Shown in pieces: positions 3,618 to 45,991 of a stretch of 45,991 nucleotides of DNA (position 1 is its first letter; every line of letters begins with the position of its first letter). The notes beneath the pieces are model-generated. The model made no database searches and had not been told where the DNA came from. It saw only the letters and a program-made list of their open reading frames with translations. A program made the translations under genes and the position numbers. Origin of the DNA: a virus; the IMG/VR virus record IMGVR_UViG_3300044834_000016, positions 1-45,991 of that record. One strand, written 5' to 3'.

Positions 3618-3926
3618 TCAAAAAAGCCCCGCGAGATCCTCGGCGCTTTTTTCCAGATCTTCGGTGACCTGGTCGCCGGCGTCGGCCAGCTTGCGCATCG
3701 CATCGAAGAACACCGTCGTCTTGCTCGAGGTTAGCGGCGCTGCATTGTCAGCGACCACATTACCTCGCCCAGCGATCGAGCCGCGTATTTGCTGCAGCCT
3801 GTCGCGGACCTTGCCGAGCCGCAGCAGCGTCGCGTGCATCCGCTCGAGCAGCTGCTGCGCTTCGGATTTTGCCGGCGCCGCCTCGTCTCCCTTTGGAGAG
3901 GAAGTGTCAAAGGTGATGTCTCTCAT
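3618..3926 (-). CDS. Coiled-coil protein downstream of the initiator (102 aa)
   Basis: The start is the ATG that overlaps the initiator stop codon by four bases (ATGA). The sequence is mostly heptad-like helix: SEAQQLLERMHATLLRLGKV, then DAMRKLADAGDQVTEDLEKS. Tight coupling to the replication initiator suggests a helper in replication, such as a loader or regulator, but no family is recognised. Confidence 0.7.
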   Translation of the reverse strand: MRDITFDTSSPKGDEAAPAKSEAQQLLERMHATLLRLGKVRDRLQQIRGSIAGRGNVVADNAAPLTSSKTTVFFDAMRKLADAGDQVTEDLEKSAEDLAGLF

Positions 3927-5005
3927 GACGCGCTCCTTCTCAACGCCACCGGTGTCAGCGGCAGCGTCGTCTGATCGGCGAACAGCAGCGCCTTGGTGCG
4001 CTGCTTCACCACGTTGGAAAAATTGTCCCCGATCAGCTGCTGCTCGACCGCGTCGGAAATAATTTTGCGCAAGCCCGCGGCGTCGTTGCCGCAGCGCTTC
4101 AGCCAGTCGACCACGGTCTTGTCGGCAACCTGGCGCGTGACGCGCAGCTGCTCGGCGACGAGGCCGATGCCGGCCTCGACCAGCCACCGCGCGTCGGCGG
4201 AAACCTCATTGCGCCGCGCGCCGATCGACGCCACCGCCGACTGCGGAGGTTCGGCCAGCCCCTTCGCCACGATCACCTCGAGCCGCAAGATCTCGGGGCG
4301 CCGGGTCTGCCAGCATTCCAGGATCGATCCGCCGAAAAAATTGCGGATGTGATCGGCCGCGAACTGCGTCGGCGCTGCCAGCGTCAGCGTGTCGCCCTCC
4401 GCCGAGATCAACGCTGCCTTGCCGAGCCAGCTTTTGAAGTGGGCGGGCCCGATCTTGGCCTCGAGCACGCTTGCAAAGCCGCCGAGGCGGTCGGGATGGC
4501 CGGAAGCGCCGGCGCCGTCAGGCACGCCGGCGCGCGCGGCCGGCGCGGGAGCGGGTAGTCCTAAAGTTATCTCTAAAGAGGTAGGGGGTCCTTTTTGTCC
4601 CCTATTCGCGGTCGTTTTTGTCCCCTGTTCGGGACGTTTTTGTCCCCCTTTCGCGTCGGATGGGGGACAGTCTGTCCCCTGTTGCCCGTCCGATAGGGGA
4701 CAATTTGTCCCCTGTTGCACGGGCTCGAACACCGGCCGGTAGCGGTTGCTGCGGCCGCGCTTGTCGACCGCGATGTAGCCGGCCGCCTTCAGCGCCGCGG
4801 TGGCGCGCTTGATGGTCCGGTCGGCCAGGCAGAGCCGCTCGGCGAGGTACATGACCGACGGCCAGGCGTCGCCGGTGCGGAATTCCACCAGCGAGAAGAT
4901 CTCGGCCCCGATCATCCGCGTCGACGACGACAGCCGGCCGTCGCGCCGGATGCGGTCGATGGTGGCCAGCTTTTTCCGGTTGAAATCGAGCAGCGCCTCG
5001 CTCAT
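3923..5005 (-). CDS. rep: Replication initiator with wHTH and DnaA-N-like domain
   Basis: Residues about 25-92 form a winged helix-turn-helix (AWPSVMYLAERLCLADRTIK is the helical core) as in phage replication proteins. Residues 97-140 are a low-complexity Gly/Gln/Pro linker whose codons are the iterons at 4592-4713. Residues about 176-232 (FASVLEAKIGPAHFKSWLGK and following) resemble DnaA domain I, the part of DnaA that contacts DnaB helicase. The C-terminal 110 residues are helical and unassigned. The most likely role is to bind the iterons and bring in the host helicase. It overlaps both neighbours by ATGA junctions. The layout, with the origin inside the initiator gene, is like lambda O. 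Confidence 0.8.
   Translation of the reverse strand: MSEALLDFNRKKLATIDRIRRDGRLSSSTRMIGAEIFSLVEFRTGDAWPSVMYLAERLCLADRTIKRATAALKAAGYIAVDKRGRSNRYRPVFEPVQQGTNCPLSDGQQGTDCPPSDAKGGQKRPEQGTKTTANRGQKGPPTSLEITLGLPAPAPAARAGVPDGAGASGHPDRLGGFASVLEAKIGPAHFKSWLGKAALISAEGDTLTLAAPTQFAADHIRNFFGGSILECWQTRRPEILRLEVIVAKGLAEPPQSAVASIGARRNEVSADARWLVEAGIGLVAEQLRVTRQVADKTVVDWLKRCGNDAAGLRKIISDAVEQQLIGDNFSNVVKQRTKALLFADQTTLPLTPVALRRSAS
4592..4713. repeat. Iteron cluster, candidate replication origin
   Basis: Five TGTCCCC boxes lie on the plus strand with their G at 4597, 4620, 4642, 4674 and 4707, spaced 23, 22, 32 and 33 bp, close to whole helical turns. The first three read TTTTTGTCCCC. The last two sit in odd-length perfect palindromes: GGGGACAG-T-CTGTCCCC (4663-4679) and AGGGGACAA-T-TTGTCCCCT (4695-4713). 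The cluster lies within the initiator's own linker codons, and an A+T-richer stretch (4561-4580) adjoins it. Confidence 0.75.
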
Positions 5006-5608: not shown

Positions 5609-5830
5609 TGCGTCCTCAGGGACTTGGTGGGATAGCGACGCGGACGCAACGAAACGCTCGAAAACGCAAAACCGGTTATCCACAGGGGCCGAACAGGCAC
5701 CGGCGCACATCACACTGCGATGCGACTTTTCCACAGCCGCCAAAAAGGCACTCGACGGCGATTCGACTCTGTGGCAGCCGCCCGCCAGCTTGGCGCGCAA
5801 GTTCCCTGGCGTTCGAGTAGCCCGCCCGCA
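5609..5830. promoter_or_regulatory. Gap after cro-like gene with DnaA boxes
   Basis: This 222-bp gap holds a perfect consensus DnaA box, TTATCCACA (5676-5684), and a one-mismatch box, TTTTCCACA (5727-5735), 51 bp apart and in the same orientation. An A-rich stretch with repeated AAACGC/AAAACGC precedes them. It has no credible gene. It may be a second part of the origin or a DnaA-responsive control region for the replication genes. Confidence 0.5.
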
Positions 5831-6082
5831 TCATGCCGCCGCCTTTTCCATTTCCGCTGTCGTCACCTGGCCCCACAGCGAAGGCGGCGCGGTCAGCCGC
5901 TTTTTTTTCAGCGCCCAGGTCATCACCACAAAGTAGCGCGACGGAAAAGTCTTGCCGTCGCCCCACGGCCAGACGGTCTTGTAGCGAGCGCCGGTCAGCG
6001 CCGAGACCTTGGCCGGACCGCCAAGCGCCTTCATCACCTCGTCTGTGGTTTCGAGCTTTCGCGACTCGCAGCGCTTCGCCAT
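5831..6082 (-). CDS. Cro-like DNA-binding protein
   Basis: The 83-residue protein contains TTDEVMKALGGPAKVSALTG followed by a recognition-helix-like ARYKTVWPWGDG. This is the pattern of small Cro/YdaS-type phage regulators. It is divergent from the CI-like gene with 45 bp between the start codons. The 15-bp palindrome overlaps its start codon, and no Shine-Dalgarno is visible, so its mRNA may be very short-leadered. Expected role: early regulator that favours lytic growth by occupying the shared operator. Confidence 0.7.
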   Translation of the reverse strand: MAKRCESRKLETTDEVMKALGGPAKVSALTGARYKTVWPWGDGKTFPSRYFVVMTWALKKKRLTAPPSLWGQVTTAEMEKAAA

Positions 6083-6095
6083 ACCGAATCGGTAT
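6081..6095. promoter_or_regulatory. Operator palindrome of the cro/cI-like switch
   Basis: ATACCGA-A-TCGGTAT is a perfect 15-bp odd palindrome in the 45-bp divergent gap. It overlaps the start codon of the leftward Cro-like gene (6080-6082). A further half-site in the form GTATTCG adjoins it. Its position fits an operator bound by one or both regulators. Confidence 0.6.
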
Positions 6096-6127
6096 TCGAT
6101 TTTTTCAGGAAATACAACGAAGCGGAA

Positions 6128-6493
6128 ATGTTAAATAGCAGCGAATCCATTGCCGATGCACCTTCCGCCGTCATGGCAAAGAAGGGGCGACCGGCAACAA
6201 AGCCGGAACGAAAGGAAGAGCTGCCGGGCCAGAGTGACCGGCTCAAGCGGTTGCGCGTCGCCTATGGTTATGCAACCACGACCGCGTTCGCACTCTTCCT
6301 CGAAATCGAACTCACCACGCTGAGTTCTTTCGAAAACGGCGCCCCACTCAGCCGGCGCGCGGCCTTTAGGATCGTCCAGAAGATCCCCGGCATCACGCTT
6401 GACTGGCTCTATTTTGGAAAGCCGGATGGCCTGCCGCTGGAAGTATTGCGGCGCCTCGGGCTTTTGGACACCCCAGGGAAACGCAGCAGCTGA
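6128..6493 (+). CDS. CI-like helix-turn-helix repressor
   Basis: It encodes 121 residues from the ATG at 6128 (an ATG at 6173 is an alternative). The core is an XRE-type HTH: RLKRLRVAYGYATTTAFALF then LEIELTTLSSFENGAPLSRR, followed by KIPGITLDWLYFG, a signature of phage XRE repressors. There is no peptidase (S24) domain, so induction would not use LexA-like self-cleavage. It is divergent from the Cro-like gene and is the probable lysogeny repressor. Confidence 0.75.
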   Translation: MLNSSESIADAPSAVMAKKGRPATKPERKEELPGQSDRLKRLRVAYGYATTTAFALFLEIELTTLSSFENGAPLSRRAAFRIVQKIPGITLDWLYFGKPDGLPLEVLRRLGLLDTPGKRSS

Positions 6494-42848: not shown

Positions 42849-43160
42849 TCAGAATTCGAAATCGATGCTGGGTAGACCGACGTGTGAACCATTTGACGTG
42901 ATCATCGGTCGGGCGCTGGCGCGCGTGACAATGTGAGGCCGCCCGTATGCGGTGAGACTGACGGCGGTGACGATGTACAACTGGTCGTGGCCAATTCTGA
43001 GGATGTCCCCGATCTTGAGAGGGACGGGATACGGCATCCGGAGTGAACCGACCGGTGGAGCGAACGATCTCACCGGCATGATGTTCGCGGCGCGGACGAT
43101 CGCCGGAGCGGCAACGAGACTGATCAGGCCAGTGATCAGGGATCGGCGGTTGATCGACAT
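42849..43160 (-). CDS. Exported protein with Tat-like signal (103 aa)
   Basis: It starts MSINRRSLITGLISLVAAPA with a twin-arginine-type signal and probable cleavage after VRA. The mature part (about 78 residues) contains YPVPLKIGDILRIGHDQLYI, VTAVSLTAYGRPHIVTR, a small beta barrel. It is an unusual export signal for a phage head-region gene; a periplasmic or cell-surface role is possible. Confidence 0.65.
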   Translation of the reverse strand: MSINRRSLITGLISLVAAPAIVRAANIMPVRSFAPPVGSLRMPYPVPLKIGDILRIGHDQLYIVTAVSLTAYGRPHIVTRASARPMITSNGSHVGLPSIDFEF

Positions 43161-44425: not shown

Positions 44426-45352
44426 TCACAAAAAGCCGTCGCCGGCGTGATCGTCGAAGCCTGAATCGCGGCGGTCGTATTCCCTGAGCGTGTTGACGTC
44501 GGTGTGGCGCGTGATGCCCATGATCTTGAGCAGGTCGACGCCGTTCTCGAGCGACGTCGTCACGAAGCCCGCGCGCATCGAGTGTCCGGAATAGATCTTC
44601 TCGTCGAGGCCGATCGCCCTGATCGCCCGCTTGACGATCCGCGCCACGGATCGGCCGGTCAGCGCTTTTGCCCCGACGCGGCCGTGTCGATCGACTTCGC
44701 GGAAGATCGGGCCGTCGGTTAGGCTGGAGGCCTCGAGCCAGGCCGAAAGTGCAGCGACAGGCTGCAGCTTGCTGCCGCGCGGGATCGGGATCTCGGCGCC
44801 GCGGCCCTCTTGGTCGGTCTTCGACCGCCGGATCTGCAGCACGATGCCCTTTGGCCGCCACTCGATGTCGTTGACTTTTAAGTCAACAAGCTCGGACCGG
44901 CGCAGCGCCGCGGCAAAACAGACCAGCACGATCGCCTTGTCGCGGTGGCCTGCCAGCGTGTCGGGAAACAGCGCCAGCAGCCTGGTGATCAGCTCCGCCG
45001 TCGCCGGCGCCTTCCTGGTTCGCTTGCGGCCCTTGGTGCGCCGGATCCCGCGCATCACAGCCTTGACGCCCTCGGCGTTGGTCGGCGGCTCGTGGCCGGC
45101 TGACTTGTGGGCGTAGCGGATCGCGGCGACGCGCCGCTCGATCGTGGAAACCTTCTTGCCGCCGTCGGCGAGCTGCGAGAGATATTTTGCGACCCCGATC
45201 GGCGTCGCCGGCAGCGGGATCTCGCTCGTCGCCTCGCACCAGGTGGTGAAGTCAGTCCAATCCGACCCGTAGCCGCGCCTGGTGCTTTCAGACTTCTCGG
45301 CGGCGAGGTAGGCTCGCACCGAAGCCAGGGGATCGACGAGCTCGGTGGACAT
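44426..45352 (-). CDS. Second tyrosine recombinase
   Basis: 308 residues with an N-terminal SAM-like core-binding domain (residues 10-110) and a complete catalytic set: Arg-151 (ALRRSEL), Lys-178 (RRSKTDQ), His-257/Arg-260 (GHSMRAGF), His-283 (GITRHTDV) and Tyr-292 (LREYDRR). It is not beside attP and is transcribed with the methyltransferase group. It may resolve multimers, invert or exchange DNA, or be an integrase of an inserted element. No recombination site was found for it. Confidence 0.9.
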   Translation of the reverse strand: MSTELVDPLASVRAYLAAEKSESTRRGYGSDWTDFTTWCEATSEIPLPATPIGVAKYLSQLADGGKKVSTIERRVAAIRYAHKSAGHEPPTNAEGVKAVMRGIRRTKGRKRTRKAPATAELITRLLALFPDTLAGHRDKAIVLVCFAAALRRSELVDLKVNDIEWRPKGIVLQIRRSKTDQEGRGAEIPIPRGSKLQPVAALSAWLEASSLTDGPIFREVDRHGRVGAKALTGRSVARIVKRAIRAIGLDEKIYSGHSMRAGFVTTSLENGVDLLKIMGITRHTDVNTLREYDRRDSGFDDHAGDGFL

Positions 45353-45669: not shown

Positions 45670-45991
45670 TTACGCGGCTCTCGAAACCAATTTAGCCTTG
45701 CGGCCGGTGTGCTGCTCCCACCGCGCGATCGCCAGCCCGCAATATTCCGGACTGAGCTCGATGGCGTAGCAACGGCGGCCGGTCATCTCGGCCGCGATGA
45801 TGGTGGTGCCGCTGCCGACGAACGGGTCATAAACCCCGTCGCCGTGCAGCGTGTGATGGAGGATCGGCCGGCGCATGCACTCGATCGGCTTTTGCGTGCC
45901 GTGTCCGGTCTCCGATCGGCGGTGCGGGATCTGCCAGATCGTGACCTGCTTGCGATCGCCCTGCCAGTTCGCCGTCTTGAGCTTGCGCACG
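45670..45991 (-). CDS. DNA methyltransferase, C-terminal part (continues from position 1)
   Basis: This is the rest of the 262-residue enzyme whose first part is at 497-1; bases 45962-45991 repeat 1-30. Residues 165-262 hold the TQKPIE motif, the cofactor motif DPFVGSGTT (about 211-219) and AIELSPEYCGLAIARW. The stop is TAA at 45672-45670. Confidence 0.9.
   Translation of the reverse strand, partial: VRKLKTANWQGDRKQVTIWQIPHRRSETGHGTQKPIECMRRPILHHTLHGDGVYDPFVGSGTTIIAAEMTGRRCYAIELSPEYCGLAIARWEQHTGRKAKLVSRAA
45962..45991. repeat. Terminal direct repeat, right copy
   Basis: Identical to bases 1-30; see the left copy. Removing one copy gives a circle of 45,961 bp. Confidence 0.9.

Follow-up and report, generated by a model that had tools for sequence, protein, structure and literature searches.

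A probable lambda-type replication origin within the initiator gene of a temperate tailed phage

Introduction

Can the gene for a phage replication initiator also carry, in its own codons, the origin at which that initiator acts? In-gene origins are already known as a kind, from lambda O and SPP1 gene 38, and the question arises anew for IMG/VR virus record IMGVR_UViG_3300044834_000016, the whole of which was analysed (positions 1–45,991, here called the window). A preliminary description of this DNA had pointed to short repeats in the gene of a protein with wHTH and DnaA-N-like domains and suggested an origin inside that gene. Comparison with relatives supports the suggestion, and three features can be added: two codon frames are used to read the boxes, AT-rich DNA adjoins them, and the exact layout is conserved. 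The new elements are this type of initiator, the exact layout of two- and three-turn steps, and evidence for the recurrence of frame-breaking phased arrays in wHTH initiators; no earlier account of in-gene iterons in an initiator of this type was found in the open-access literature, though one may exist.

Genome organization

The window contains terminase, portal, major head protein, tail and integrase genes (integrase at 44426–45352), a gene content that identifies it as a temperate tailed phage; given the integrase, the plasmid-like replication suggested earlier is not upheld for the phage itself. A 30-bp direct repeat occupies its two ends (1–30 and 45962–45991), which suggests that the assembly is complete and either circular or terminally redundant.

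The replication initiator gene (3923–5005, minus strand, 360 aa) is assigned from Pfam and PHROG matches. It is adjoined by a small gene (3618–3926, minus strand) whose product has no convincing family match in Pfam or PHROG; the gene is conserved in the relative L127, where a homologue (41%) also adjoins the initiator. Upstream of the initiator and transcribed in the same direction is a Cro-like transcriptional regulator (5831–6082, minus strand), recognised by PHROG and conserved in L127 and in a second relative, L108 (59–65%). The order repressor-type ORF, Cro-like gene, initiator is common to all three phages. In the window the repressor-type ORF (5720–6493, plus strand) overlaps the Cro-like ORF on the opposite strand, and its PHROG match begins only at about 6215. 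DnaA-box-like TT[AT]TCCACA sites lie in the early operon 100–150 bp downstream of the Cro-like gene in all three phages (window 5676–5684 and 5727–5735; L108 7028; L127 4563), and possibly represent a host DnaA site tied to the origin or its promoter.

The initiator protein

The initiator is laid out as an N-terminal wHTH (residues 24–78), a linker (81–174), a DnaA domain I-like module (179–246) and a C-terminal helical domain (270–342). Both domains named in the preliminary description are recovered above the Pfam cut-off, as HTH_36 at residues 24–78 (E 1e-8) and DnaA_N at residues 179–233 (E 7e-10). The linker, which had been called disordered, is predicted to be so (pLDDT <50) in an AlphaFold model of low overall confidence (pTM 0.28). 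PHROG 'replication initiation O-like' families are matched through the wHTH; the Pfam search that reported HTH_36 and DnaA_N gave no match to Phage_rep_O (PF04492) at E≤1, and of the parts of DnaA it matched DnaA_N only, with no Pfam match to an AAA+ domain or DnaA domain IV. The best Foldseek match is DnaA domain I (4tps), followed by the DnaB loader VcDciA (8a3v, E 9e-3), and phmmer also matches DnaA 4tps; Foldseek is informative only for the DnaA/DciA-like domain, the wHTH matches being generic.

In Escherichia coli, DnaA domain I contacts DnaB through Glu21 and Phe46 (PMC5448010). In our reading of the alignments, two of the three phages retain the Phe position but none retains that of Glu, so direct contact of the DnaA domain I-like module with DnaB is only a possibility, one that the residues do not support in detail. 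No DnaB_C or IstB/DnaC domain is matched anywhere in the record, which fits dependence on the host helicase, and no lambda P-like loader gene was recognised in general Pfam and PHROG searches.

A box array in the linker codons

The repeats are exactly as first described. TGTCCCC occurs on the plus strand at 4596, 4619, 4641, 4673 and 4706 (spacings of 23, 22, 32 and 33 bp), and inverted copies at 4663 and 4696 bring the total to seven boxes in 117 bp (4596–4712). In the orientation of the gene these are GGGGACA at gene offsets 293, 326, 358, 380 and 403 (steps of 33, 32, 22 and 23 bp) and TGTCCCC at offsets 303 and 336. The first box in gene order (4706–4712, minus strand) is half of a 19-bp odd palindrome, AGGGGACAATTTGTCCCCT (4695–4713), with the inverted box at 4696–4702 as its other half; the second (4673–4679, minus strand) forms a 17-bp odd palindrome, GGGGACAGTCTGTCCCC (4663–4679), with the inverted box at 4663–4669. 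The remaining three, all on the minus strand (4641–4647, 4619–4625 and 4596–4602), have one clear arm and only a degenerate second arm, such that perfect palindromes are present at two of the five boxes.

The boxes fall at initiator residues 98–137, C-terminal to HTH_36 and within the predicted disordered linker. In gene order the five direct boxes are read in codon frames 2, 2, 1, 2 and 1, giving QGT in one frame and GGQ or RGQ in the other; the peptide therefore cannot explain the repeats, and what is conserved is the DNA of the box and not the peptide. The steps of 22–23 and 32–33 bp amount to nearly whole numbers of helical turns (two and three), which places the boxes roughly on one face of the DNA. 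Only two other copies of the box exist in the whole 46 kb, at 4024 (same gene) and 43004.

The array is not a product of chance or codon choice. Among 300 simulated 46-kb sequences matched to the dinucleotide content of the window, no 124-bp stretch held more than two boxes, compared with the seven observed. When linker residues 94–150 were recoded synonymously in 100,000 trials that followed the codon usage of the phage, the count never exceeded three boxes; with uniform codons the maximum was five.

Directly 3′ of the array in the direction of the gene is an AT-rich stretch, CTACCTCTTTAGAGATAACTTTAGG (4560–4589), which is proposed as an unwinding element. Its AT content is 0.70 at 4560–4579, compared with 0.33 for the initiator gene, and it is conserved, with 26 of the 32 positions of 4560–4591 invariant among the three phages. 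The change of GC skew expected near 4.6 kb was not found: the cumulative skew of the window has no turn there, and its minimum is at 17.0 kb, where gene direction switches. GC skew carries no signal and was dropped as origin evidence.

Conservation in close relatives

A palindrome scan of viral contigs recovered the relative L108, in which the corresponding gene holds seven boxes, and a profile search recovered L127. Matches to the single palindrome GGGGACANNNTGTCCCC in viral contigs are mostly isolated, and only clusters were used. A protein-only search for close relatives found none in annotated phages and only L108 and L127 in viral contigs; the exact array is carried by only three close relatives, the window included. 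The full profile also matched Hyphomicrobiales genomes, for the most part at chromosomal DnaA by way of domain I, and these matches were set aside; triple GGGGACA was found three times in 397 Hyphomicrobiales genomes, about the same as the built-in reversed control.

The L108 and L127 initiators are 54–56% identical to that of the window, and both genes keep all five direct boxes at identical spacing (33/32/22/23 bp in gene order). Across the three phages 35 of 35 direct-box positions and 13 of 14 inverted-box positions are invariant, compared with 52 of 76 in the spacers and 34 of 59 upstream. The boxes had been expected to be conserved at synonymous positions in relatives, and they are: third-codon positions are invariant at 13 of 13 sites in the direct boxes versus 15 of 25 in the spacers, and identity at 4-fold sites is 0.78–0.95 in the linker versus 0.50–0.72 elsewhere. 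The linker peptide is also conserved (0.68–0.85 identity). As judged from this comparison, the array is under selection at the DNA level.

Related arrays in other phages and plasmids

Triple GGGGACA arrays are present in many ORFs of viral contigs, and the commonest PHROG families among the 68 ORFs that cover them are all replication initiators. The reversed box, ACAGGGG, failed as a negative control, since 30 of the 61 ORFs with triple arrays of it match phrog_270, a stronger initiator signal; judged by the initiator genes in which it lies, it is a second true iteron class (e.g. TGACAGGGGGTGTCA). GGGGACA is therefore no special universal box, and it is only the arrangement that recurs. Members of the TGACAGGGGGTGTCA-like class (ACAGGGG/CCCCTGT) have 22–23 bp steps and alternating frame, and are found in unrelated wHTH phage initiators (L286, L287, L292, L298, L312, L315, L348, L389 and others).

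In wHTH initiator ORFs 58 distinct arrays were compared: their commonest spacings are 22–23 bp, two or three reading frames are used by 46, and AT content peaks (0.62) 20–40 bp 3′ of the arrays, against about 0.41 upstream; the HMM used to call initiators was partly seeded with array-bearing proteins, so these counts are indicative and not independent. In non-initiator ORFs most array spacings are divisible by three, like those of coding repeats. In a codon-permutation test p<0.01 was also reached by 5 of 41 control genes and weak single hits mean little; it is the strong signals, with z of about 5 to 19, that carry the argument.

Several initiators found by protein alone have arrays of their own. 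L432 (G071; 520–1314) contains five copies of CAGACCG at 34/32/22/22 bp followed by an AT-rich CTAACTCTTTAAAGAACTCTC, close to the CTACCTCTTTAGAGATAACTT of the window, and the steps are 33/22/22 bp in L421 and 33/22/24 bp in L430. No array was seen in the protein-found relatives L401, L404, L408, L412, L419 and L422. These sequences suggest, in part, that box letters change among relatives and the layout stays. Gene 21 of Arthrobacter phage Arielagos (Decurrovirus; L398 619–1395) has linker repeats GTACCCCGGGGGGGGTATC and CGACACCCGGTGTT, and is probably another in-gene origin.

Plasmid records of two alphaproteobacteria, Ruegeria conchae and Neotabrizicola shimadae, also encode HTH_36 initiator-like proteins with GGGACA-type arrays in the linker (L403 9280–10047 and L402 801–1577), each with MobC adjoining; in the 16.6-kb Neotabrizicola record the HTH_36 gene is the only plausible initiator among the annotation listed, which is incomplete. 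Because related initiators with like arrays are on these two plasmid records, plasmid-like replication is plausible for the module of initiator and array. Taken across genomes, the sequences are evidence that helically phased, frame-breaking arrays are a recurrent feature of wHTH initiators in many phages and some plasmids.

A candidate in-gene origin

The reading favoured here, with a probability of roughly 0.85, is that this temperate phage replicates from window 4560–4713, an origin embedded in the gene of its own initiator as in lambda. It is well supported by comparison, through the exact conservation of the boxes and their spacing, the invariant third positions, the two frames, the AT-rich stretch and the likeness to lambda architecture. 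The wHTH of the initiator would bind the iterons that are palindromic, probably in the form of dimers on one helix face, and the array would wrap or bend and melt the AT-rich stretch. Host DnaB may then be recruited by the DnaA domain I-like module, the C-terminal helical domain or both, with or without the host's own loader, and early-operon transcription across the array may help opening, as in lambda. With iterons and initiator in one gene, the two move and change together.

The boxes could instead be an operator through which the wHTH protein represses transcription of its own gene, the origin being elsewhere. Such a role is improbable: five helically phased sites with an adjoining AT-rich stretch fit an origin better, the sites are about 300 bp inside the gene and away from any promoter, a search for sigma-70-like promoters near the array having found none. 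The early promoter region does lie upstream of the array, palindromes are common targets of wHTH proteins, and iteron initiators often also autoregulate; however, there is no box at any other promoter, the only distant copy being that at 43004, and the lambda and SPP1 precedents are origins.

There is a slim chance that the array serves a different protein, as a packaging (pac/cos), partition or repressor site, since repeated palindromes are used in such sites too and we infer the initiator to be the binding partner. However, the element shared among the many unrelated phages and plasmids with like arrays is a wHTH initiator gene, with the array inside it, and not a terminase or Par protein, and the terminase genes of the window are 35 kb away. 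Scarcely credible, and largely refuted, is a GT/GQ-rich linker selected as protein and merely resembling DNA boxes, which would accord with an array wholly within coding sequence and a conserved linker peptide, but not with one DNA box giving different peptides in two frames, invariant third positions, or the few boxes recovered on synonymous resampling of the same protein.

A wider proposal, to which we would give even odds, is that lambda O is one case of a very broad class of self-origin genes, comprising phage and plasmid wHTH initiators with the origin in linker codons. Its members would share an architectural rule (two-turn steps of 22–23 bp, often with one or two three-turn steps of 32–34 bp, a break of frame between boxes, and AT-rich codons after them), and box letters and C-terminal helicase-recruiting modules would be swapped freely, the module here being a DnaA domain I-like one that may recruit DnaB without a phage loader. 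If so, the origins of such phages and plasmids could be read from the initiator gene, which would help to place origins in uncultured viruses; a protein linker and a DNA origin would have to evolve on shared bases, in different frames, and a binding domain and its sites would travel together. The DnaA domain I-like module also allows a specific question to be put, that of a phage initiator recruiting DnaB without a phage loader.

Comparison with known systems

Iteron plasmids of the RK2, P1 and F types resemble the locus in having phased direct iterons with an AT-rich region adjoining. Their iterons are normally outside the rep coding sequence and are bound by Rep monomers; here the initiator is HTH_36 and not Rep_3, and the iterons are partly palindromic. 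The resemblance to bacterial DnaA is confined to the middle module, where Pfam, phmmer and Foldseek all point to DnaA domain I; unlike in DnaA, no AAA+ domain or domain IV is matched in Pfam, and DNA binding is expected from the N-terminal wHTH.

In the Bacillus phage SPP1, oriL is within gene 38, and as at the locus described here direct repeats and an AT-rich unwinding element are inside the gene of the origin-binding protein (PMC6316719). SPP1 differs in encoding its own loader, gp39, and helicase, gp40, no counterparts of which were recognised in the window record.

The closest parallel is with lambda, for which an origin within gene O is proven; a dimer of O binds each of the inverted repeats that serve as iterons, and O binding opens a 40-bp AT-rich region (PMC5043065, PMC7466680). 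Lambda O was examined as a positive control: its four annotated iterons, which are palindromic, fall at residues 117–144, in frames 0, 2, 2 and 1 with spacings of 20/24/23 bp, and an AT-rich tract lies 3′ of them. The iteron letters differ (TCCCTCAAAACGAGGGA in the window, GGGGACAnnnTGTCCCC in lambda), as do the five boxes with two three-turn steps found here, the Pfam assignment of the initiator (HTH_36 and DnaA_N in place of Phage_rep_O) and the absence of a recognised lambda P-like gene. The architecture is otherwise that of the lambda, lambdoid and Stx phage origins: the array lies within the initiator gene, in the linker that follows an N-terminal DNA-binding domain; as in lambda, iterons (perfect palindromes at two of the five here) are set about two turns apart in several reading frames, an AT-rich tract follows on the 3′ side with the same polarity, and the initiator follows a Cro-like gene in the early operon.
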